From Owenia fusiformis (lineage: Eukaryota; Annelida; Polychaeta; Sabellida; Oweniidae), in NCBI GenBank assembly GCA_903813345.2, contig CAIIXF020000005.1, positions 37,515,375 to 37,579,374 on the forward strand: DNA of 64,000 nt, given 5' to 3'. A model generated the notes under the pieces. The model was not told where the DNA came from, ran no database searches, and saw only the letters and a list, made by a program, of their open reading frames with translations. A program made the position numbers and the translations under genes. Each line of letters starts with the position of its first letter. Within the stretch, counting starts at the first letter, position 1. Shown here in pieces: positions 25,001-62,100 of the stretch.

Positions 25001-26849
25001 ATTTAATCGCATATGAAAAATACCGGGGTATAGTATTTAAAGCAGCATTTCATCAATCTTCTGACTATTTAACATGTTTTGGTACATTTACCTGACATAT
25101 TATAAGAATTCTGGAAAAAGCCTTAAAATCAGGGTTTCAGTGCTAAAATGAGACTCCTGTGGTTTATGAAGATTTGTTAAGCAAGTTGAGGATAAAATAA
25201 TTTATAAATGAAAACTAAAGTCTAAGGATGGCATAATGTATGGGCGTTTTACAGATATAGCTAGGGCGTATAAAAACGACAATTTCAAAATATATAAGTC
25301 GGATATGTTTAATGCATACTGCGTCGCTATAGAATGACCGTTGCCTCCGCACCAAAGATTCTGCCGCACCAAATAGTTCCCACGGGCTCCGTCTGCATAG
25401 AGTGCATAGCATTACAACATGTAACATATAAAAATATCCCCATCTTTGGTTTGCCAGCCTTCCCATCATGTTGTGAACTTTAGTTAAGTTAATCTATGAT
25501 TGTTTCTAGGTCCAGTTGCAAGTATTCTAACCAACAAGTTTGGATATAGAGTAACAATGATGACAGGGGGTGTGCTCTCAGCCGTTGGACTCGCCACAAG
25601 TGCTTTGTCAACTAATATATACCATTTGTATGTTACATTCGGAATAGTTACAGGTACGTTTCAAAATATATTGCACAATATCGTGCGCATCTTATCACCC
25701 CTTCAAAAGAGTGTGATTATTGATACTTCTGACGAAGGTCTCTTTTAAGAGGCAAATCTATCTATTGATATAGGGTAGTTTAAAAGTTTGCGTCTTTTAG
25801 AAATCGGCATATGCTCTGTCATGTAAAAAGTTAATTTTATGATGGATTTAAATCTAATTTCAGGATGTGGTTTTGGAATCTGCTACATTCCAACAATAGC
25901 CGTCTTGGCTGTGTATTTTTCAAAGAATTTAACATTGGCGTTTGGATTATCATCAGCAGGTGTTGGCATTGGAACTTTTGTTTACCCGCCCCTTATAACA
26001 AGCTTAATATCATTGTATGGGTGGCGAGGATGTATGCTGATTCTATCAGCTATTACCCTTAATCTATGTGTATGTGGTGCTATAATGAAGCCGAATCCGA
26101 TTCAAACTTCTAGTCTAACGGAGGTCGATGAACGATGCCCAATGGATGACATTGAGACCTCCGCTCCCCAAAATAATGTATTTGATATTAAAGTCCTTAC
26201 AAATCTGAATTTTTTATTCATGTGCCTAAGTTCCTTCCTCTATTGTTTTGGACATTCAATAGTTTACGTTCATTTTGGGGAATATGCAATTACCAGAGGC
26301 ATCAAGGAAAATCAAGCGACATTCTTATTTTCAGTGATTGGGATATCGAACCTAATTGGGAAGCTCATATATGGATCAATATCTACGGTAAAACATCCTT
26401 GTGCGAATATAATACTAATGTTTGCGATATCATTGACATCTTCTGGTTTATTAACAATGACGATTCCCTTTCAGACAGGGTATCCACTGTTAGTTATATT
26501 CTCGGTTGTATTTGGGGTATGTAGCGCAGCTTTCGGCGTGTTGCCATCGGGAATTGTCCACCAGTTTCTTGGGACAAAAAATCTTGCCACTGGATATGGT
26601 ATTTTATGTATATTCTGTGCAATGGGTACACTTCCTGGTGCTCCGATAGCCGGTGAGATGTTTGACTCTGTCAAACGTTACGCAGAATCATTCTACTTGG
26701 GAGGAGTTGCTATAGGCCTTAGTGGAGTTATTATGATTATACCATATCTCAGAACCCGCACATCCGGGCATTTACAAAACAATATAAATGTCACTGCTGC
26801 AGATGATTTTACAAAACAAAGTCTACTAGATATCGCCACAGACCATTAG
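22072..26849 (+). CDS. SLC16/monocarboxylate transporter-like protein, three coding exons
   Basis: Major facilitator transporter of the MCT (SLC16) type, a plasma-membrane carrier for monocarboxylates or related small molecules. Exons 22072-22324, 25510-25653 and 25864-26849 join in phase (1,383 nt, 460 residues); all junctions have GT..AG. Family features are GVFFVVYLDAF after TM1, GPVASILTNKFGYRVTMMTG in TM2-3, and the TM5 signature YFSKNLTLAFGLSSAGVGIG. A short central loop follows, then VLTNLNFLFMCLSSFLYCFG in TM7 and a 12-helix hydrophobic pattern. The usual acidic-Gly-Gly-Trp TM1 entry motif is replaced by WWNKITYGWLVV. Start: ATG at 22072, or ATG at 22126 just before MGWW, which fits family length better. 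A polyadenylation signal AATAAA lies at 26888-26893. The substrate cannot be told. Confidence 0.9.
22371..22524 (+). pseudogene. decayed duplicate of SLC16-like exon 1 (copy 2)
   Basis: Sequence from GTAGGTGTATTTTTGTCG through CATTCCAAGAAT, CCAAAGGAATGG and CCTGGACCGGATC follows the 3' half of exon 1 (22225-22324) in order. The following intron bases (TTAAAGGATTA) match too. Indels and stops destroy the frame and the donor is lost. It lies directly after the true exon, so it is a tandem duplication. Confidence 0.8.
22525..22600 (+). pseudogene. decayed duplicate of SLC16-like exon 1 (copy 3)
   Basis: GTGTATTTTTGTCCTTAATC, GCATTCCAAGA and TGTATGTAAATAATAGGTAAG repeat the same exon end, with an internal deletion of about 50 bp. 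The GTAAG donor is still present. Confidence 0.7.
22679..22816. repeat. 43-bp tandem repeat, three copies, in SLC16-like intron 1
   Basis: Units starting TTGAGTACAATAATTCATTC at 22679, 22723 and 22766, each ending CATTGAATGGATC, plus a partial fourth TTGAGTAC. Units are nearly identical. Confidence 0.85.
23343..23402. repeat. 60-bp hairpin in SLC16-like intron 1
   Basis: GATGTTGACAAAACGTAC (23343-23360) and its reverse complement (23385-23402) flank a further TGTACGTTTTGTCACATG. No target duplication seen. Confidence 0.7.
24763..25030. mobile_element. MITE-like inverted repeat in SLC16-like intron 1
   Basis: The left end CCGAGGTATATTTTCGCCGC..ATTAAATTTCGCG is matched in reverse by CGCGAAATTTAATCGCATAT..ACCGGGGTA at the right end. 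The ends are diverged; there is no coding capacity. Confidence 0.5.
25285..25401 (+). repeat. degenerate copy of the 837-bp foldback arm
   Basis: CGTCGCTATAGAATG, GACCGTTGCCTCCGCACC and GGGCTCCGTCTGCATAG follow the right arm of 20537-21373 in order, with deletions. Confidence 0.65.
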
Positions 26850-29361: not shown

Positions 29362-32300
29362 TTACAATTGGGTACTTTCAAATCTTACATCATCTAAAAA
29401 CATTTTTGGGTCATACTTTCCCTTTACCGGGGAGTGTCCATTTTCGTTTGGTCCTTTCTGATGTCCAGTACCATTTTGAGTGAGTTCTTTTTTAGGTTTA
29501 ATAGGAGTTGATGTCATGCCATTCGTTGTCACTCCATTTGAAAATGTTTTCAAACTAGCTCTACCATTTCCCAATCTGTTATCAATTTTGGGAGTTTCGC
29601 AACTTTCATCCGGGTCAAAGGCTTGGTTTCGTAATTGTTCGGGTGTTTCCGGTGAAATTTCAGTTGCCATTGCTTTGGCCAAAATGTCATTGCCTTTGAA
29701 TGGAGATTCGCACTTCTCGCTGACAATACAGTAATCAGTGTCCCTCACTTTCGTATTGTTGGTTGTACCACTCTGAGATGCAGCGGTTGATGTCACTGGG
29801 GTTTTACCACGGTATTTCTTAAAAGTACCCGTCTTGATTAATTGAGACCAGGCAGCTCGGGCCTCGGGGTTAAGAGAACATTGAAAAACGAATATGCAGA
29901 ACCCTTGTAAAGAGTTTGTAATAACGAACGCATAGCTTATTGCAACTTTTGCCTCTCCGATTGCAAAGATTCCTAGTATCCAGGACACTCCAAGAAGTAC
30001 GAGAACAGCCATTATACCTCTGACCTAAACAATGAATAATTGGTGAACAATTAGTAATCAATTACTACTGATGACAGCAGCAGTCAATTCCAAATGATAA
30101 CATAGTGCCCAATTTAAATAGAATTCAAAATGGGATATATACCTTTCAAAACTCTTTAATATACGAGTGGAAATAAACACTTCACTGACCTGTGTCAAGC
30201 TTATATTCTTTTGTCCAGTTTTCCTATCAAGCTTGGGTCTGATAAGGACTTTAGTGAGAATAATGAATATAATTAAGTTGCAGAAAATAATGAGACAAGC
30301 TGGGGCAATATAGGTGGCGTAGTAGATGATCGGATTTCTCCCAGACAGACGACAGCTAAAATCAAAATTCAGATCACATTAATCAGTTAATGGTTTCTAG
30401 TAATTTAATCGTTTGATAATATATGTTTTCGTTGTGTGGAAATGGGTTTCTGAGATGAATTACTCACAAGTTTCCTTCGTGGTTATACAATAAATAATCA
30501 GTTCCGACAGCAACCCCAACAGGTATACAAGGGAGGCCCCACGCAAAAAGTAGCCGCTTTACTAAGAATAGTCCCTCGTGAACGCCAAACACCTGAACCA
30601 GCATCTTGTACATGTTATATGCCTCAACAGACATCCATAAGAGAGTAGATAGCACAAAGAAATGTAATGCAACGGATACTCCTAAACACACGTGGTCAGA
30701 TACAACGTGGTTCTTGTCCGATGCCACAATAAAAAGGATGTTCATGAGAAGCATACTAAAGCAGAGTTGGATAAGAATCTGTCCAGTTTTCTCACGATTT
30801 AGACTTCTAGAAAAATAAGAAAAAATAGATGTCACAATATTTCATTGTATCTTTCCACACATATTTGTGACCAAAGACGTCTATCTCTTGGACAGGGGTC
30901 CTTTGAGTGACAAAAAGGACATAGAATATGTTGCACGGGTGTGCTACAACGGTCAATGTATTAGTATATACCTCGATGATATCACTTTATGAAATCTTAA
31001 TTGTTCTATGTTTAGCTAGGAGAAAGTGCAAACTAGAATTGGAGATTACTGTACCTGAAGAGGATATATGTCAAAAAGGTTAGGAAAAGCCCAAGAATGG
31101 ACAGAGCACTCCCAGCATACGATAGCACAGTAAGAATATATTCATGGTGGCCCATTTCGACAGGACGTGCATCAACCTCCTGGTGAAAAGTAAATTGAAG
31201 CATTTGATTTCAATGTTCGTCCGAGCCTGTTTCCAAAACGCCTATCATTTAAGACGTACTACTAATAGAGGGAGATGCTTACATTAGTCTATTGCAGCTA
31301 ATGTTAAAGGTGCAACAATTAGTGCAGGGGGCCATTCAATGATCATCGACCGGTGTCAAAATATGTTAAAGTTTGGATATTTTATCAAGACTACCATATA
31401 TTTTTATTATCTACAAAGAAACCCCTGAATGAACATTATTTCAGCTGATATTCCTCGTGAAACGTTGTGAATCTTAAAAATCTATAAGTGGGACTCCCTT
31501 TATAGAAGCTTTGAACTGAATTTACACTTCTTAATGCTGAACTTCAGAGTTTATCCATACATTTTAAGAAAATAGGTATGTCAAAGAAGATGTCAAGCCA
31601 AATATTGACCCGATAGCTCAGAAAAAATAAAAAATTTTGAATTTTCTCTCTACAGTCCTTGTTGCCCCTTTAATTTAGTAAACATCATGATTTGTCATCT
31701 GACGAACACTTTTATTGATTTATTGGAAATGCATTTGAAAATTGTATAAGAAAAAGAAAAGCAATGATTTTATAATATGGTTGTGAAACTATTGAATATA
31801 TCAACATATAAGCTCACCAGTAAAATTGCAAAGTTTGTCAGATGTCTCGAACAACATTTCATTCCTTTGTCTAACTCAGTCATCAGATGAACCCCTTCCT
31901 TTGACCACATATGATCTAAAAAGTAATGTAATTGACAGTTAAAATACTTAATCGAGCATAGTCCACCCGTTTAGCTCAGCGGTAGTGCAGGTACCTCTTA
32001 CGCAATAGGTCCCAGATTCGATCCCCGGTTCAGGCAAGACTAAATTTGCTTGTTTACGTGAAGTACTTCAGGGTGTTTGACTGAGTGGTCCCCAACTCGT
32101 ACAAAAGGCTGTGGTGTGTACTTGTATGTCTATGTATAAGTGCACATAAAGGAACACAGGGCTCCTTCAAGGAGGGGTTTCTGGGTCTATCTTCCAGGTT
32201 AAGTACGTCAATTACGACCGTATATATACGGGATATACCCAAGAGGTATTGCTCACCTTCATTGGTGGTAAACAAAAATACAATACAATAACGTAAAATT

Positions 32301-35300
32301 CATTTTAAATTTCAACTTCATCTGTTCATATGCATATATACATGTAGTTAGCATGACGTACACAGTGGAAAAACAGAATTAATTCCCTATTGTATAAATT
32401 CATTACCCACGTCATCCCAAAACACACATGACTGCCCGCCCTTCGCTGTCATATAAGGAAGTATGTATTCCACACAGTCCTCAAGACCAGTGACGAATGT
32501 ATCATTGATAGAAGCAGCGATTACTTCACTGGCAGGTCCTTGAACAGGCAGGTGACTCTTAAATAGTTTGCTTGTTTTGTAGTAAATGAATGAGACTCTA
32601 AAAGCGTCTGCAGAACCACGTCGCCTCGCCATAGCAAACGCAGATCCAGGGACCTTGATCTGAATTATAGAGTTGGCCTATCTGTAAACTTAAATTCATG
32701 AATTGCAACCTGGTTGCAAAAGGTGTGGAAGTCATGGTAATACCTATCATTAAAATTGAAAATGTATAAATATTTAGTCAAAGTGAACTTCAGAGGTTTT
32801 AAAGATTCTTGCAATGCAGTGAGACCTTACTTCTTCAAATGACCAGGATTTGAAATCCCGTGTGTTAGTACATTGACACATGCTTCAACTAAATGTGAAA
32901 CTTACAGAAATAGTCCCCCCACCAGGGGAATACTCTAGACCATTCATGACGTCAACATATCTGACATCATGTATCTTCATTTTAATATTATGGAAACTTA
33001 TTGTCAGCGTTCCACCTGAATCTGGTGGCAACTTTACATGTGATACAAACATATCGATGAAATCTCTTGACCTGTAACACAAAACAACAAACCAGATGCT
33101 TTTTAATATTTTCATATATATACGGCTCTATTACACCTAGGTTTTACCGGAAATCATCATCATCGGGAAAAGGGTCTAACCAAATACTGAAATATGTACG
33201 ATGTTTGATAAGATTTTTACAGAGTAATGTATGTGTTCTTAAAATGCTTCCCTTGAACATCAAAGTGACTCTTACTTGGTACCAATGTCATTTGCAACGA
33301 ATGCTTCTTCCTCTAAATTCATAACATCGTCAATAAGTCGAAGTAATTTGTGTGCGACCTGTGAAATACATTATCAAGATGTCATAAACCAAATTTTCAA
33401 TTTTACTAGTTATGATTCAAGAAAATGCTAATATGATGATATTTAATGAAAATATTTATCAAATCAGTCTAGACTGATTCTTTTAAATCATTAACAAAAC
33501 ATGCTGATGTTTACCTCTAGGTCATTTGTAGAGTACATCTGTAGGTAGTAAACCACATCAAACAGCTCTTCAATTTCCTCCTTTGTACCAATGTCATTAT
33601 CTTGCAAGCGTTGTATCTCACTGTTAGCTATATTTTTAGTAACAGTGACCTATATTGAACAATGAATGCTGTTCACAATTATAATGTAATTAGAATTGTA
33701 ATACATCGTATGAATTACAAGTTAAACAGGTTAAACGTTATCATTACAGGTAAAACGAACGAATCAATTACTTTTTCTAAATACTTGAAAACAGTCTTTG
33801 ATATTTGATACACACTTTTTTACATTTGTCCGGAATTTCTGTCCCCCAGTACAACATTCCACCGTGATCGATGTAACACGTGCGGCTTGCCCGAGGTATG
33901 GGTGAATCCGGCGACATTGCCTCACATGGTAGCGACACTGTGCTTCCATGGGCGGTAGACGGCCAGTTGAATACGCCATAGCGACCTATAGTTTTTTCTG
34001 ATGTACAGTTCCCTAAAATTATACAATTGCCTAAAAATTATACAATTATCAAAATACAATTTCTTAAGTTATACAAAATGCAATTCATACTCTCTGAGGA
34101 TTTTATACTGCGACAATATGAATAACTACAAAGATCAGAATATGGAAATGAAATAAAAAATACTCAGATAAAGGATTTAGGAAGCTTTAGCTATTTCAAA
34201 TAAGATGTATTGTACTAGGACACAGTATCTTTGATGAATATATTAAGACGTAGATCCAAATAGGGACGACAATACCCAAATGGATTGACCGTGAGCCATT
34301 GAAGTCACTTCAATATCATCTAACGTTAATGTCTCTAACTTACGTTTAGTTTGACACAAGGTGCCTGTAAAACCTGAAGAACATGTGCAGTCGAAGCTCC
34401 CACGTCCTCTCCTTTGGCACGATGAGTTGTGGTTGCATGGATTAGAATAGCAGGGATCGATCTCTTCCCCGCAAAGTCGACCTATGTTAACAATAGAGAT
34501 TTCCGATTAACCCTGCCATCTTTAAGTAGACCACAGAAACTTGCATATTGGCCAGAATTATGATGTCATTGGTTGTAGGTTTGTTTTGAAGCAATGCGGC
34601 AGGGTTTATTAGAAAGGTCTATTAACAGATTGAACTCCTTCAATGAAAAGTCAATACTCGTGGTAACACAATTTCATCTTTTTGGAAATGAATCAAATAC
34701 CTCCTTTCAACCTATTGGTATTATTAACTCACTTGTATTCTACCACAAAGAGGGGGGTGAATACAAGAATAGTGTCAAGGGCCATCGCATGACCACTTGT
34801 CATGATTGTAGCATAAACATATGGCTTACCAGTATATCCAGCTGTACATTCACATGAGAAAACTCCATCGCATATGTCACCTTCTACGATACACTTGCCG
34901 TGGATGCAATGGTTGGTACTACACGTGGTGATATTCTCACAGTGTTTCCCACAGTAAGTTGGAGGGCAGTCACACATGTACTCTGTAGCGGATACATTCC
35001 TGCACATCCCGTCGTGTACGCAGGGCTGAGAAAAGCATGGGTTGTAATGTTCACAGTTTTTCCCGGATGCACCGTGAATGCACTCGCATTCGTATTCCCC
35101 CTCTTCCTTCGTAACGCATAGGCCACCATTCAAACAAGGCTTGGTGTTACATTTATCGTATCGGGCGCACATTTCACCGTAGTAATCCTCAGGGCATAGA
35201 CACTCGTAAGTGGTGCCATCTATGTCCTTGCAAGTTGCTCCGTTCAGACAACTGTGACCGATACAAGGGCTGTCTTCGAAATATTCACAGTTTGGACCAT

Positions 35301-38300
35301 GGTAAAATTGAGGACATACACAACTGTATTTTGCGATGTTAGAATAATCAATCACACATTTCGCATCGTTCTTACAAGGGTCTGGATGGCATGAATTGAT
35401 CTCCGTGCAATTTTCACCTGCCCACTCTGGAAATACGCATGAGAAGAAGGAAATGGAGAAAACATTTAGATGTCGAATGACAGTGAAAGTTTTCTCCAAA
35501 CCTGGTACCATACATTGCCATAGGACATTGGCCACTGTATATGCCATGTATGCTGTATTGGGAAATCAGCTTTGAAAATATCCTAAAGTTTAAAATGTTT
35601 ATAATCAGGAGAGTAAATGAAAATGAGGTTCTGAAAAGAATTTCCCTTTAGAAACTTTGTTGGTAATGTTCATTAGAAAAGCACAAATGAGAATAAGAAA
35701 TGAAAGATGATAGAAATATGTTGGTTGGAAAATAAAAAATGGGATAAGGGATATATCTGATGTATCCTACCTGGCATACATCTGCAGTAATAGTCGCTAT
35801 TAGATGTATTGAGACATCCTACTGTTCGCTCGGAATGACACGGGGACAAAGCTTTGCACAAATTCATGTGTTCACAATGTGGTCCATACCGTCCAAGCTC
35901 GCAGTCGCATATACATTGACCATCAATAGAGTTAGCTATGCCACCATGGTAGCACCAGTGGTTTGCACAGGGGAAATACTGCTCATACTGGCATCTGATC
36001 CCATAGAATCCGTCTGGACATAAACATTGTTTGGTTTTATGAGCCACAATACATTGACCGCCATTCTCACAAATATTTGTATCGCAGGGGACATAGTATT
36101 GGCAATGGGGCCCAGAAAAGCCAGATGGACACCTGCACCTGTAGTTGTTTTCTGCCAGCTCGTCTGGTTTGATAGCTGTCGTGTTTTTATTGATATTTTC
36201 ACAAACCCCTCCATGCTCACATGGACGCAGAGAACACCAATCGAAAATGTCACAACGCTCACTTGAATATCCATCCGGGCATTCGCATACGACTGACGTC
36301 AGAGTTATGTTGACACAAGTAGCTCCATTTAGACAATATCCACTAACGCAAGGATCTGGAAACTGGCAGTTTTCTCCATAGTAACCCTGTGGGCAGAGGC
36401 ATCTATATGACAACGTGGAGTCATTTGTACACGTGCCGCCATTCCTACAGGGGCGTTGCAAGACACAGTGATTCTCGAACGCACAATCACTTCCGTAGTA
36501 GCCATCGTAACAATTGCACTCAAAATGAAAGTTTGAAAGAACCTTGCAAGTGCCTTGACCATTACAGGGGTTTAGAGAGCATGGATTGAAGACATTACAA
36601 GAGACCCCGGTGTATCCTCCAGTGCAGATGCACCTATATCCGGGGGACTCATGAAGCATCTCACAGCGTCCATTAACACATGGCTTCTGGATGCAAACTA
36701 AAATTAAGAAGCATTTCATCATTCAATACAAATAATTCAGATATTGGCATTCAGGTGACATAATTGTGATTGATCTTGGCCATCTATAAAGACAAAATGT
36801 ATGATAGATTCGGGAGTATGAAATTTATTGCAAGATAATTTAATTATCTCAACATTTCTGGACAAGTTATTTTGAAGAAACTTGACCCTGATCATTGACT
36901 TACATGTAAGATGTACGCTATGAAGTATATGTTATGGTTCATTTAGTTGACAGTGTCAAACCGCCGTCTTAGTCACCCAACCGATACCAAGGTCTATGGC
37001 ACCCCAAATTTGAAGTACTGTACATAATATTACAAAAGAAATATCCAAAGAGATCTGGGAAAACAATTGATAGACCAAAAAGGCATTGGTATATTTTAAA
37101 TCGAATGGACCATAACTAACTTCCAGTGTGTCACTTTGTTGTCGTTGTCTTTGAAATGACGTGTCAAGTAATCTTGAAATAATTCAATCAACTTTGCCAT
37201 AAATTGAATATCACAAATCGAGAATACACCTCGTCCTGCTTGTTGGCCCACATCAATTACAATTCCGTCACTTAATGTCAATTAGAAAAGTGCTCACTTT
37301 AGCACTTTATCGTTCTATTCTTTCAATGTGTGACTTTGCGTCTATGGTAATGAGTTATTGAACCAGCCAAACCCGATTACTCTTTGAGAGCAGAGAGACA
37401 CAAGTTGATTGGGGTTCTATTCGACCATGACAAATGAAATATAAAGACTATCAAGAAGTGAGATATTATAAGAGATAAATTAGACAGTAAAGGATGAATA
37501 AATGAGCCCAGTAATGCCAAAACCTCATGCACAACTGGTTTAATAACACAAGTAATATCGCTCCAACGTGTTACCAATAAGTGTTTTCCGTAACTTTAGT
37601 GTCATGTGCTATATCTAAGATTGTCAGAGGACGCCGATAAATTGACTTTTGATGTTTACCATTCATAAAAAAGTGATAATGAAGCAATTTTTAAGTTTGT
37701 TACCATCAACTTCCATTTGGAAATCTAATTTTGATGCAACTCCTCTTTCTTGGGAATTGAAGGCTTTTAGCTCCAAGGAGTATGTCTCCCAAGATATCAG
37801 ATCATCCAGGTTGAAGCACATAAATACTAGATCGTTTTTAACAATTAGTGACGGTTTTCTTGGCGGTCTTTGGTTACCGTCTGGTGTCACGTACAGAAGA
37901 ATTTTCTTCTTGGCGTTCGGCCTCGATTTGAGAAAGTATATAATCTCGTAGCCATATGCGTTTCCAAAAAGAGGCTCTCTCCAGCACACCCTCATTGTTG
38001 TTCGATTCAGCGCATCTGTTGTTATCTGCTGCACCTCTAAAATTAAGAAAGTTGTCCTTTGATACCTAAAAGTGTATTCAAACGTTCAATCTACAAGCCA
38101 ATAATCAATACAAATGCAACTCTTACCTGAAATGTTCTTAACGTGTATGGTCAAATCTGCAGTTTTAGATCGTATGGGTGAACCAAAATCACTAGCCGTC
38201 ACGGTAAGGGTGTAAGAGTTCCTTGCGGTCAACAATTCTTGTCTTGTTGTAACAACACCAGTCGTTTCATCTATATTAAACAGATCGATCCCCTCATCCG

Positions 38301-39167
38301 CTGAAGTTAAATGGTATTTAACTCTGGCATTGTACTCTTCTTCGTCGTCATCATCTGCGTGAATCGTCGTAACATTTGTACCAACATTTGCATGTCGCGA
38401 CACGTCAGCATCAAAGCTCTCCGATGGAAAATACGGTGTTTGGAGATTTTCTTTCGAGACTATTACTTTAATGTCTAAACGCGCATGACTGGTGGAGGAT
38501 TCCGTCTCGTATAGCGCGATAAGGACGATTGAATAGGATTCGCCAAGTTGTTTTCTCAGTGGGTTCTCAAGAGTCACTACACGTGATCCATTCGTCGTGA
38601 AACTCAAGCTATCTTCTCCAATTATAACGTATGATATTTGCGGTAATCCGTCCATGTACACTTCATATCTCGCGTGAAATGCGATAACACGTGACCCAGC
38701 TGGTGCGTTCTCTTTTATTCTCGCGATTAGTATCGAATCGTTGTCCACTTTTGGATAGTCGAAAATAATTGTGTGTTGACCTGAAATAGTATGGTATAGT
38801 CAGATAGTATACATTGTGTTTATGGTACAAGTAGATTATAGCTATATAGATTTTAAGAGTTTGGCTCGTGTCTTCCAAATTTAGGTAATAAACGGATTTA
38901 CTACAGAGACGCTCTCTCACTTTTGTTTCATATTTTTTGTAAAAATTAATACTATATTTATTCACTAGTTGACTAAACTTCAATATTCCTTATAATAAAG
39001 AAGTAGCAAAATGATTGGAGAAAAACTGAAACATCCATATAAATTCCTCTGCAACATACTTATATTTGATGAACATTTGTAAATTACTGAAAATTATGAC
39101 TTGACTCACCCACTATTGCATTTATGCCTAGCAGGATCAACACTATATAACAACCAAATCCACGCAT
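29362..39167 (-). CDS. adhesion GPCR with cadherin-FN3-EGF(14)-HRM-GAIN-7TM architecture
   Basis: Cell-surface adhesion-class receptor of 1,643 residues. Exons (minus): 39167-39110, 38780-38127, 38036-37704, 36697-35771, 35426-34830, 34481-34344, 34012-33816, 33649-33515, 33358-33276, 33071-32906, 32659-32407, 31915-31818, 31179-31055, 30806-30468, 30355-30190, 30024-29362. All join in phase; ectodomain modules are phase 1-1. Domains: signal peptide (1-20); two cadherin repeats (about 25-237; HADDDDEE, DETTG, VTASDFGSP); FN3-like (240-348); 14 EGF repeats (350-903), two of which are completed across exon junctions; HRM (905-966, Cys/Trp pattern); GAIN (970-1210) ending CVFWDD..MKCCSRHLTNFAILL, with an intact HL|T self-cleavage site. 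Seven TM helices (about 1225-1450) include LSTLLWMSVEAYN, LLGVSWILGIFAIG and NSLQGFCIFVFQCSLN. The tail ends STQL, a class I PDZ-ligand pattern. It resembles CELSR-type receptors but lacks LamG domains and most cadherins. Confidence 0.93.
31964..32288 (+). mobile_element. tRNA-derived SINE in adhesion GPCR intron
   Basis: The head has pol III promoter boxes: A-box-like TTAGCTCAGCGGTAGTGC (31971-31988) and B-box-like AGATTCGATCCCC (32014-32026). A body follows from TTTGCTTGTTTACGTGAAG with a small palindrome CCGTATATATACGG, and the end is GGTAAACAAAAATACAATAC. The body is shared with 12165-13057. It lies antisense in the intron between exons 11 and 12 of the receptor gene. Confidence 0.85.
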
Positions 39168-49880: not shown

Positions 49881-52162
49881 TGATCTCCTATCATCCTATC
49901 ATCGTCAAATGATCCTAATAGACCCTGGTTGACTTCTGGCATCTTAACTTCTGCCAAAACTAAAAATAAGCTATATACCAAATATTTGAAAAATCCCTGT
50001 TGCAAAACAGGAAAAGCTTACAAGTCCTTCAACCATAAACTTAAGCACATAATTAAATACTCAAAACGTACACATTATCAAAATAAGTTTGCCGAAGTAA
50101 GTGGTAACATTAAAAAGTCTTGGTCTATCATTAATGAACTACTTGGAAAAAACAAAAAAGCTGCATTGCCATCTAAATTCACTATAAATGGAAAGGAAAC
50201 AACAGATCATGAAATCATTTCCAATGGATTTAATAATTTTTTTACCAATATTGGTAAAAATCTAGCCAAGGAGATTCCAAAATCCAAAAAATGCTTTAAT
50301 GAATACCTAGCAAGAGCTCAAAAAGTTCAATCATCTATTTATCTCAAAAAGACCTCAAAAACTGAGCTTGAATTAGAAATGTGTCTTCTAAAATCTTCCT
50401 CGCCTGGACCTGATGGGATTCTACCATCACTTATTAAGTCTGCAAGACAGTTTTTAATTGATCCACTCTTGTATATATTTAACTTATCTTTTAAATCTGG
50501 TATTTTCCCAGACGCCCTCAAATTGGCCAAAGTAACACCTGTATTTAAAAAAGGTGTCACTACAAATCCTTCGAACTATAGACCAATTTCAGTTTTATCT
50601 GTATTTTCTAAATTGTTAGAAAAGCTCATGCACGCCAAACTCACTGGTTTTTTAGAACGTTTTGAAATTATTTTTACTTATCAATTTGGATTTCAGAAAT
50701 TCAACTCTACCTACATGGCCATTTTATATTTCATTGAACAAATTCGAAAATCAACTGATTTGGGGAAAACGAGCATTGGCATAACATTAGATTTTTCCAA
50801 GGCCTTTGACACAATAAATCATGACATTTTGATACAAAAACTTGAATATTATGGCATCAGAGGAATAGCTAAGTCCTGGTTTGAAAGTTATTTAAAAGAC
50901 CGCAAACAATATGTCACCATTAAAAATTATGAATCTAAACAATCATCTCTAAATTGTGGTGTTCCGCAGGGCTCGGTACTTGGACCACTATTATTTATTC
51001 TTTACATAAATGATCTGCCTTTTGTTGCCCCTAATCTAAAATTTATTATGTTTGCTGATGACACCAATCTTCTTGATAGTGATTATGATTTAAATGAACT
51101 TATGACTAGAACTAATGCAAACTTGAATGCAATAGATGACTGGATAAAAGCAAACAAACTTTCACTTAATATTGGCAAAACCAATGCTATTCTATTTGGA
51201 CCCCAAAAAAATCAAACAAATCAGAATCTTAAAATACGCAATGAGAACATAAATTTCCGGGAAAAAATTGACTTTCTTGGAATTATTATTGATAAAAACT
51301 TGAAATTTAAAGAGCACATAAAATCTGTTGAAACAAAGATTTCTCGCGTCATTGGTTCTCTTTATCACATTAAACATCTACTTCAAATAGACAGTTTCAA
51401 AACAATTTACTACTCATTGATACACTCTCAATTAAATTATTGCAACATAATCTGGGGTAACACATTTAAATCATTTTATGATCGTCTACATAAACTGCAG
51501 AAACAATTCTTAAGGCTAGCTTTAAATAAGGATAGACTTTCTCACTCCGCTCCCCTATTTAAAGATCTTAGAATATTAAATATTTTTGATGTCAACAGAT
51601 ATTGTACTAGTCAGTTCATGTACAAAATCTTTAATAAGCACCCCAGTCTTCCAAAAAATCTATTTCAAGACTTGTTTGATATCAACCTTAATATTCATCA
51701 TCATTACACAAGACAATTGCATTATTTTCATATCCCTAAATGCTCTAAACTTTCCCTTCGCTATCTGGGTCCTAATCTTTGGAATGCTCTACCACATGAT
51801 ATTAAAAAATGCTCCACTCTAAATATTTTCAAATCTTCATATAAAAAACTACTCATCTATCGATAATGTATAATACCAATATCATACTATACTGTTGATT
51901 TTATACTGGTACCTGATTTTTGTAACATTTTTACATTGTACATCCTTAGATTAATTGTTAATACCATTTTTATATACCTACATGTAACATAATATAAGTG
52001 TTTTCTTTTATATGTAGTCTAGTTGTCATTTTAATGATTTCTATTAAACCGCAACATATACCCACTAGGGTGTCTAGCGGCTTGTTTTTTATAGTGTATA
52101 TTATATAAGAATTATGAAATAAATAAATTGAATTGAAAAAAAAAAATTGAAAAAAAAAAAAT
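49881..52162 (+). mobile_element. 5'-truncated jockey-superfamily LINE
   Basis: Contains the reverse-transcriptase ORF (49884-51866), about 250 bp of 3' UTR, AATAAA motifs near 52118 and a tail made of TTGAA(A)n units. The endonuclease domain and any ORF1 are missing, so truncation occurred at about 49880. TTTCAG occurs at both borders and may be a short target duplication, but this is weak. Confidence 0.85.
49884..51866 (+). CDS. LINE ORF2 fragment: reverse transcriptase
   Basis: About 660 codons without a stop. The conserved finger and palm blocks are visible in order: SSSPGPDGILPSLIK, LAKVTPVFKKG, NYRPISVLSVFSKLLEKL, LDFSKAFDTINHDIL, GVPQGSVLGPLLFILYINDL and the catalytic FADDTNLL (about 51050). 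The thumb and C-terminal region ends with LGPNLWNALPHDIKKCSTLN. It lacks the apurinic-type endonuclease normally encoded upstream in this superfamily and has no proper ATG (it opens with WLTSG). No RNase H is seen. An uninterrupted frame in a truncated copy indicates recent insertion. Clade (CR1, L2, Rex1, Daphne) is not resolved. Confidence 0.9.
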   Translation, partial: SPIILSSSNDPNRPWLTSGILTSAKTKNKLYTKYLKNPCCKTGKAYKSFNHKLKHIIKYSKRTHYQNKFAEVSGNIKKSWSIINELLGKNKKAALPSKFTINGKETTDHEIISNGFNNFFTNIGKNLAKEIPKSKKCFNEYLARAQKVQSSIYLKKTSKTELELEMCLLKSSSPGPDGILPSLIKSARQFLIDPLLYIFNLSFKSGIFPDALKLAKVTPVFKKGVTTNPSNYRPISVLSVFSKLLEKLMHAKLTGFLERFEIIFTYQFGFQKFNSTYMAILYFIEQIRKSTDLGKTSIGITLDFSKAFDTINHDILIQKLEYYGIRGIAKSWFESYLKDRKQYVTIKNYESKQSSLNCGVPQGSVLGPLLFILYINDLPFVAPNLKFIMFADDTNLLDSDYDLNELMTRTNANLNAIDDWIKANKLSLNIGKTNAILFGPQKNQTNQNLKIRNENINFREKIDFLGIIIDKNLKFKEHIKSVETKISRVIGSLYHIKHLLQIDSFKTIYYSLIHSQLNYCNIIWGNTFKSFYDRLHKLQKQFLRLALNKDRLSHSAPLFKDLRILNIFDVNRYCTSQFMYKIFNKHPSLPKNLFQDLFDINLNIHHHYTRQLHYFHIPKCSKLSLRYLGPNLWNALPHDIKKCSTLNIFKSSYKKLLIYR

Positions 52163-59590: not shown

Positions 59591-60100
59591 TAGAACTATT
59601 GGAAAGGGCATCAGAAATATAACATAAACAGATGAATACAAGGGCTTGCTTATAATACTTGAGTTCTAGCCATTTTGACCAGGAGGATAACCGGCATGAT
59701 GAATGATCATGTATTCATAAATATCGAAGAACAATAACTTTTGGAGTCGATGATTGGTTTTTGAGGGATAAATGGATAAAATCAGTTATCAAGGATTATA
59801 TTACATAGCCTTTTTTATAATAAGAGAAATTGGTAAGCATTTTTGATCACCAAATAAAGTAATTATGAAAATGACAAATGCTCGGGCAAATGCAAAACAT
59901 TGAAATACACGAACCCTAATTCGTTATGTATACAATGTTTTTTACTTATACAACTTGTTCATGTGTGTCAATTTTTTCTTTGTGGGTTAAAACCATCAAT
60001 AATACCTAGAAAATTCACGAAGTAGAATAAGTAGCTTCCTTTTCGTCTAGAATGCGTTTTTAATCTTTAAATTTTTGTAATTTGTTACTTATTGTTCAAG

Positions 60101-62100
60101 GTTGTTCGTTGGTGGCATTTTGGCCGATGAACCATGAACACATCGAAGAGGATATCAGTGGACATGGCAACCATTTGAATATAAGCAATGTTGACTTGGA
60201 ATGTGGTCCAATGAAGCGTCAAGCTGGTGCACTGAGTTTCCATGGAAATGTAGATTCATACGCCAGGTTGGCGCCTTCTTCTAGTCTCGACGTCCAGCGC
60301 TCCATGACCTGGATGGCTTATGTCTACGGGGGTATGCCGCCTAATAACCAAGGCCCTTTGTTGAACTTTGAGTATCCCTGCACGGGCACCGGGTGCAAAA
60401 CATGGGGCACACATATATGGAGAATGGGTAACATCCTCTTTTTCAAAGTTGTCATGCGTAATGGGACCTTTACTAACGCCGTTAGTGTATCTGTGCTAGC
60501 ACCAAATGAATGGCGGTTTGTGGCGGTGACATATAACTACACGTCGGGCGATGCTTCCATTTGGAATGACGGAAATAAAGCTCAAACGAGAAATGTAGGC
60601 TCGACCGAACAAGCTACGCAATATGAAGCGGGAATGGGAATTAAACTGACCGAGGACTCCAGAGCGTTCAGTGGAAGGCTTGCTTGCGTCCAGATACACG
60701 ACGAGGCTCTGGATATGAGTACATTCAATAGGACACAACTTGAAAATGACTGTTTTGGAAGTAATTTTATTTTGTTATATTTGGCTTAAGAATATTTTCT
60801 CATGCATAATCAAATTTTCTCGGCATTATTCCATGACTTATACATGTAGTATTATAGATGTGTATTTCTGTTTCCAGTCAGTGACTGTTCTTCTGACCCA
60901 TGTGTATTTGGCACATGCCACGACGAGTGCTTTGGCTACATGTGCGCCTGTCATCCAGGATACACAGGAGTCCATTGCGAAGAAGGTATGTCTCATGTCA
61001 TACGCACACGTGTCGTAACCTTCCTATTGCATCGGTACATCATCCCAGCATTAGTTTCAACGATGCATTTCTTGTATATTCAGAAATGTCGAGAATTAGT
61101 ATCTAAATGTGATATGTCAATGGCATTTGTTGTTCCAGATATCGACGAATGCGAAAGCACTCAATGCTACAACAACGGTACATGTGTAGATCTCATTGCT
61201 AACTTCACTTGCGACTGTGTAGGATACTTTGGTGGGAGGTTTTGTGAAAATGAGACAGATCCTACAACAATGGCCGACACAACGACTGAGGATATAACAA
61301 CGACCGAACTTGACTTGACTACAACGAATGCAGATAGCAATACTGAAGTGAGCGTCTTCTATTCAGTGGAAACAACTCCTTTTTATATATCAACAGAAAT
61401 GGACTCATCTATTACAAGTCTTTTCTCAACAATAACGACATCGCAGGCACCATCAACTGGAACAACAGCAGCAACGACAGCTACACAGCTTCCTACAACG
61501 GATCCCCTTCTGGCAGTGCCTTCATCAACAGCGCCTGTACCTACGCCATTATCACCCATGGACGCTACTACTGATAGTTATGACGTCGTGACAGTTACTA
61601 CAAATGTTAATACACAGGATACTAAACAAATGACTGTAGTTACTTTCAAGACTGTTCCTGATGAGAACAAATATGTTAGAGCGAAGCGAATAAACTATGC
61701 TGTTACAGAAGCAGTTGGTTCAGAAACCATTGGAACGGTAATGATAGTGTTTGTTATTGCATTCATAGCTTTTATCGTGTTCCTCGATTCTGGAATATTG
61801 TTCAGAGATACAAAGAAATGCTTCAGAAATATATTTTCTACCAGACGGCCAAAAAGACAAAGAGCAATGTATGATTTCTTCACATCAATGCATCCTCATC
61901 TTTCCGATCCAACATCCAACAATATCAACAATACTGACGATATTCCTATTACAGCCGAACCAACTGAATATGCAAATAACAAAATGGATATACGTATAAA
62001 CGATGATGACGGGGATGAGCCAGATGACGTTGGTGAATCAGACAAAATCAACGAGGCTGAAATAATAACTTTACCAAATGAACTAACAATTAAAAGTTAA
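60101..62100 (+). CDS. LamG-like/EGF/mucin single-pass membrane protein (5' end missing)
   Basis: Receptor-like cell-surface protein. Exons 60101-60760, 60878-60985 and 61139-62100 join in phase (1,730 nt, about 576 residues). The first exon opens at a splice acceptor (TTCAAG|GTTG, phase 1), so a signal-peptide exon lies upstream. Domains in order: a concanavalin-like LamG_3 fold (about 1-220; VAFWPMN, ALSFHGN, WRFVAVTYNY, ACVQIHDEAL); an EGF repeat (DCSSDPC to GVHC); a calcium-binding EGF beginning DIDECESTQCYNNGTC; a Thr/Ser-rich, presumably O-glycosylated stalk of about 150 residues; one TM helix (VMIVFVIAFIAFIVFLD); a basic stop-transfer and an acidic cytoplasmic tail. The intron between exons 2 and 3 is 153 bp with no in-frame stop. 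It converges with the gene at 62835. The ligand is unknown. Confidence 0.85.

Follow-up and report, generated by a model that had tools for sequence, protein, structure and literature searches.

The 16-exon gene proposed in a 64,000-nucleotide window of the Owenia fusiformis genome is real and encodes an adhesion receptor of the cell surface. Quite probably its product is a functional adhesion GPCR from a small subfamily, of which two genes were found, and is built as signal peptide-Cad2-FN3-EGFn-HRM-GAIN/GPS-7TM-PDZ ligand, in which the ectodomain would have been set before a core of non-CELSR type. None of the named families in our comparison showed the Cad-FN3-EGF-HRM-GAIN-7TM order. Is this one gene, or two neighbours read as one? 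Is it a CELSR that has lost most of its ectodomain? And where does the core belong?

Gene model and domain composition

The gene runs on the minus strand from 39167 to 29362 (window coordinates, used for all features of this gene), and its coding sequence of 4,932 nt gives 1,643 residues with one terminal stop and no internal stop. The first-pass annotation had proposed 16 exons in a single unbroken frame of this length; coordinates, the 15 GT-AG introns and their compatible phases were all recomputed and agree. For a random frame of equal composition, the log10 probability of staying open over 1,643 codons is -49, a rough yardstick that is only indicative because the exons had been picked for being open. 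Scans for tRNAs and tandem repeats returned nothing with bearing on this gene.

From its N-terminus, the protein reads as a signal peptide, two cadherins, FN3, 14 EGF repeats, HRM, GAIN/GPS and 7TM. Exon 1 (39110..39167) carries the start codon and a signal peptide predicted by eye, MRGFGCYIVLILLGINAIVG. Exons 2-6 are all phase 1-1 and encode, by the gene model and Pfam, the two cadherin repeats, the first of them degenerate (exon 2, 38127..38780); the FN3 domain (exon 3, 37704..38036); EGF 1-7 with part of EGF 8, by Pfam and a cysteine regex (exon 4, 35771..36697); and, by the regex, the stretch from the remainder of EGF 8 into EGF 13 (exon 5, 34830..35426) and the remainder of EGF 13 followed by EGF 14 (exon 6, 34344..34481). 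Exon 7 (33816..34012, 197 bp) holds the hormone receptor motif, HRM. Exons 8, 9 and 10 (33515..33649, 33276..33358 and 32906..33071) are assigned to GAIN by alignment with a paralogue on contig C111, and exon 11 (32407..32659) takes GAIN to the start of the GPS (SCVFWDDV), whose cleavage motif CCSRHL↓TNFAILL lies in exon 12 (31818..31915). The gene model and Pfam place the stretch from the GPS to TM1 in exon 13 (31055..31179) and the 7TM region in exons 14 (30468..30806) and 15 (30190..30355); in the gene model, exon 16 (29362..30024) adds the final TM helices, a cytoplasmic tail ending in -STQL and the stop.

How well are these domains supported? In the Pfam scan of the whole protein, Cadherin (66.8 bits, two stretches), EGF (154.6 bits, 13 stretches) and 7tm_2 (134.5 bits, cut-off 20.6) pass; GPS and HRM are absent from that listing, and with the HRM-GAIN piece alone GPS scores 37.3 bits (cut-off 22.5) and HRM 15.5, below its cut-off of 26.2. 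The fn3 score, 13.3 bits in the whole protein and 18.6 with exon 3 alone, is in both cases below the cut-off of 25. These weak fn3 and HRM calls gain support from the C111 paralogue, whose homologous exons pass (fn3 26.6 bits, HRM 28.9). The domain order given by the first-pass annotation is borne out. The FN3 exon folded alone gives a seven-strand sandwich (pLDDT 66 for the best of five models, 33-52 for the other four), and in Foldseek about 37 of the 50 rows shown for this model are FN3 domains or FN3-derived scaffolds, the rest mainly Ig folds, the best E being 2.7e-3 and none lying below 0.001 among the matches listed. The EGF regex matches 13 times, residues 347-905 containing 87 cysteines; since one match covers two repeats the units number 14, one of them atypical in its cysteine spacing. 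GAIN has no Pfam match, and we infer it from the GPS and from the alignment with the C111 paralogue. The Pfam scan of the receptor contains no LamG domain, nor a pentraxin, CUB or SEA domain.

Against solved cadherins, the pair matches CELSR1 best in the PDB (154.6 bits when the repeats are summed; 54-57 bits for the best single stretches), and Fat4 (59.3 bits) and protocadherins come close; because these score alike no source is claimed, and the exon may derive from a CELSR-like donor. Calcium-binding cadherin repeats and their linkers usually carry acidic motifs. The first repeat and the linker of the window receptor are, by eye, without them, which makes calcium-dependent cadherin adhesion doubtful. 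The phase 1-1 exons had been taken as permitting exon shuffling; exons 2-6 are compatible with this, and they fall short of a demonstration; introns inside the EGF array interrupt EGF units.

Three other features of the window deserve mention. Past the 3' end of the receptor gene and on the opposite strand lies an MFS transporter exon (25827-26846, plus; MFS_1, 86.2 bits). A 660-codon open frame with a reverse transcriptase domain (49884-51863, plus; RVT_1, 118 bits) is probably a non-LTR retroelement. Frames with Laminin_G_3 (LamG-type) and EGF, followed by a Thr-rich stretch (60064-62097, plus), are part of another extracellular protein.

A paralogue on contig C111

A second gene with the same order is present in this genome, on an unplaced 28 kb contig (C111:3869-19802, plus strand). 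It was recovered by two genome searches, with the Cad-FN3 part and with the HRM-to-tail part of the window receptor, and in the reverse search with the Cad-FN3 part of C111 the window receptor cadherin exon was the best match outside C111 (E 7e-17). The two FN3 exons did not recover each other in the genome searches; a local tblastn pairs them with an E of 0.006, and their position and phase also match. Fifteen exons of the C111 gene give an uninterrupted frame of 2,780 residues, in which the first exon rests on a placeholder base. Its signal-peptide first exon was not found, and where it would be expected a plus-strand frame (C111:1499-1885) resembles, by eye, a fragment of a Tc1/mariner-type transposase. 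Two cadherins in one 627 bp exon are followed by FN3, by three EGF exons (651, 4,518 and 135 bp) and by an HRM exon of 197 bp, the same length as in the window receptor, after which come GAIN, GPS, 7TM and a tail. The single 4.5 kb exon (C111:8509-13026) has about 38 EGF repeats, the first part resembling the array of the window receptor and the later repeats being Notch-type by eye. Between the two receptors the cadherins are 30% identical and the FN3 domains 25%; the figure rises to 35% for the aligned part from HRM to 7TM and to 42.5% from GPS to 7TM. They are alike in domain order, in phase 1 at all ectodomain introns found, in the loss of GPS cysteines and in a C-terminal T-x-L (-STQL and -MTRL), and they differ in the number of EGF repeats (about 45 in C111, by regex 6+38+1, versus 14) and in some introns gained or lost. 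A third gene with the Cad2-FN3-EGF architecture was not seen among the best-scored candidates of the genome search with the C111 Cad-FN3 part, nor among the best 150 of 599 candidates scored with its FN3-EGF part.

The place of the core and competing readings

Sequence trees and intron positions offer two independent views of the core. Genes of this genome were modelled with our own splice-aware aligner (n=23: the window receptor, C111, CELSR, L004, L006, L007+L008 and L009-L025), and 15 of the 23 entered a 7TM tree together with six PDB rows, giving 21; L011-L016, L020 and L021, whose 7TM models are partial or low scoring, were left out, and the tree is without ADGRA, B, E, F, V and G1/3/5. 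The models cover part of the 60 exon-level 7tm_2 matches in the genome. There are also 26 near-full-length 7tm_2 matches, each in one intronless frame of 611-1,230 aa (a stop interrupts one of the matches), an expansion of adhesion-type receptors that appear to lack introns; three of the 26 (L023-L025) were taken into the tree, where they form a separate branch. Intron positions were read from the same splice-aware models, mapped on the 7TM alignment, and are a character independent of the tree.

The GPS provides a further character. Four cysteines in this motif are usual, not exclusive, in adhesion GPCRs. Across 14 GPS sequences (10 own-genome, 4 PDB; L009, L017 and L022, with partial GPS models, and three intronless rows were left out, and the GPS of L006 was taken from L028, about 8 kb upstream of the L006 7TM exons and assumed to be of the same gene), the C2, C3 and C4 sites are all cysteine in 11. 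The other three are the window receptor, C111 and L004, an adhesion GPCR at C5:37386000-37395000, about 150 kb from the window receptor on the same chromosome. In them the C2 site is V, V and M, respectively, and the C4 site is S, with C3 and H-L/M↓T kept; in the window receptor the cleavage motif H-L↓T is intact and an extra Cys adjoins C3 (CCSRHLTNF). C2 pairs with C4 in the GPS, which fits their joint loss. Excerpts of a review describe two highly conserved disulphides that anchor beside CxCxHL↓T (PMC13197933), and the cysteine loss may impair cleavage in the window receptor. Because they have in common this loss and an intron at 54.0 of the 7TM alignment, a position outside the coverage of L017 and L006, the three sequences suggest a single group, which the tree does not recover but does not reject either (AU p 0.41). 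The ~9 kb upstream of L004 held no EGF by regex, only a sub-threshold C-type lectin match, so the Cad-FN3-EGF ectodomain is seen only in the pair.

Could the model be two genes joined by mistake, with exons 1-3 coding for a secreted cadherin-FN3 protein and an ATG before exon 4 opening an EGF-7TM receptor? A 1 kb gap does separate exons 3 and 4, and an in-frame ATG with a short hydrophobic run (36720, MMKCFLILVC...) lies just upstream of exon 4. This run is, however, a translated polypyrimidine tract, the phase-1 donor of exon 3 meets a phase-1 acceptor in exon 4, and C111, though long diverged, has retained these exons in this order and with these phases: separate genes would need to have kept both their adjacency and their matching phase in the two copies. 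No evidence ties the Cad-FN3 part to the EGF-7TM part more strongly than the paralogue does, and mis-joining appears very unlikely. Just as improbable, or slightly more so, is the suggestion of the first-pass annotation that the gene is a reduced CELSR/Flamingo relative which lost most cadherins and its LamG domains and gained EGFs. The two do have cadherin, EGF and HRM in common, the cadherin pair has CELSR1 as its top PDB match, and a cadherin repeat of the own-genome CELSR is among its best matches (40% over 114 aa). But this genome has a CELSR of its own on the plus strand of C5, with a cadherin array at 27.264-27.266 Mb, one clear LamG match at 27.302 Mb (50.7 bits), a weak second one at 27.308 Mb (31 bits, stops read through) and 7TM exons from 27.315 to 27.325 Mb. 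In the 7TM tree the window receptor and C111 are sisters (100/99), CELSR groups apart from them with ADGRL/ADGRD-type genes (99/98), and the AU test rejects placing the pair with CELSR (p 0.019) or with ADGRL (p 0.003); CELSR is a long branch, which leaves this evidence good but not final. The introns separate them too. Among eight CELSR/ADGRL/D-type own genes (CELSR, L007, L009, L010, L017, L018, L019 and L022), 264.0 is found in seven (L022 is without it) and 307.2 in all eight, versus neither in any of the window receptor, C111, L004 and L006; in place of the 54.0 of the window receptor, C111 and L004, 62.0 occurs in six of the eight and 63.0 in L022. The phylogeny that had been proposed as a check thus sets the pair apart from CELSR and ADGRL, with ADGRE outside the tree. 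A separately assembled receptor, the other option raised at first pass, is supported, its lineage-specific part is not: the two copies are so diverged from GPS to 7TM that the architecture may be old instead.

If the ectodomain was placed before a non-CELSR core, is that core simply an ADGRG2/4/6 receptor with its ectodomain swapped? In phmmer searches of solved structures, GPS-7TM scores highest with ADGRG2 (155.8 bits), G6 (148.4) and G4 (147.5), ahead of D1 (128.8) and L3 (124.2). Since the PDB matches listed include no ADGRC 7TM, it is the tree and the introns, not the bit scores by themselves, that exclude CELSR. In the best tree the pair falls together with G2/4/6, L006 and L004, and the absence of introns 264.0 and 307.2 is common to the pair and L006. 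Against this, the branch is unsupported (56/0), and identity does not discriminate (28-33% to ADGRG2/4/6, 28-32% to the ADGRL/ADGRD1 rows, 29% to CELSR). With 47-48% identity to G2/G6 across 229 aligned sites, L006 (C11:22.6 Mb) is the likelier own-genome member of that group, and the GPS cysteine loss common to the pair and L004 is absent in G2/G6 and in the GPS assigned to L006. Membership is possible, and we lean against it.

Meaning and comparison with known receptors

What might such a receptor do, and where did it come from? The preferred reading is that a cadherin/FN3/EGF ectodomain on phase 1-1 exons was placed before an HRM-GAIN-7TM core from outside the CELSR lineage, nearest to ADGRG2/4/6 among solved structures. 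By analogy with known adhesion GPCRs, the ectodomain would bind partner cells or matrix, GAIN would cleave itself at HL↓T and leave TNFAILL... as tethered agonist, pull or binding would expose this agonist and activate G proteins, and the -TQL tail would dock a PDZ scaffold. The gene shows cadherins attached to an adhesion GPCR core that is not of the CELSR lineage, so seven-pass cadherin receptors appear to have more than one origin or to have arisen by exon transfer. In its GPS two cysteines are lost together while HL↓T stays intact, a naturally occurring test of the role of the GAIN disulphides, and the paralogues with 14 and about 45 EGFs offer one of stalk length.

Does the pair stand for something older? 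Excerpts of the literature on adhesion GPCRs, text only (including PMC12716839, PMC13197933, PMC2246102, PMC4302439, PMC2396169 and PMC8584163), show no receptor with the Cad2-FN3-EGFn-HRM order. Among these, parts of the papers dealing with amphioxus and sponge describe adhesion GPCRs with unusual ectodomains in animals other than vertebrates, so a new domain order alone is not rare. Tentatively, and with the odds somewhat against it, the pair, perhaps with L004, could be an undescribed ancient adhesion GPCR subfamily with a Cad2-FN3-EGFn-HRM ectodomain and a one-disulphide GPS, whose duplication predates the phylum. This age is read from the 7TM tree, in which the window receptor and C111 are 1.76 apart, about twice the 0.91 between the own latrophilin and the PDB ADGRL3 row. 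Were it true, orthologues would be expected in many invertebrates, and EGF-array length together with the weakened GPS may tune ectodomain shedding.

Among known systems, the EGF-7TM receptors ADGRE and ADGRL4 resemble the window receptor in having EGF repeats before GAIN-7TM, and are not known to carry cadherin or FN3; their 7TM match is weaker (E5 91 bits and ADGRL4 95 versus 156 for G2). CELSR/Flamingo (ADGRC) shares cadherin repeats, EGFs, HRM, GAIN and 7TM, and differs in its 7TM branch and introns and in its ectodomain, with nine cadherins and two LamG domains in Ciona, according to part of one paper (PMC2396169), versus two cadherins and no LamG here. The GAIN-7TM core finds its best sequence match in ADGRG2/G4/G6. 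Like the window receptor, L006, which among the own genes is the likeliest to be G-type, is without introns 264.0 and 307.2, whereas G2 and G6 keep the GPS cysteines of which the window receptor has lost two. A SEA domain belongs to the ectodomains of this group. In excerpts of the review, ADGRG6 has a HormR before GAIN, like the HRM of the window receptor, and the CUB domain of its ectodomain and the pentraxin in that of ADGRG4 (PMC13197933) contrast with the cadherin/FN3/EGF array described here.
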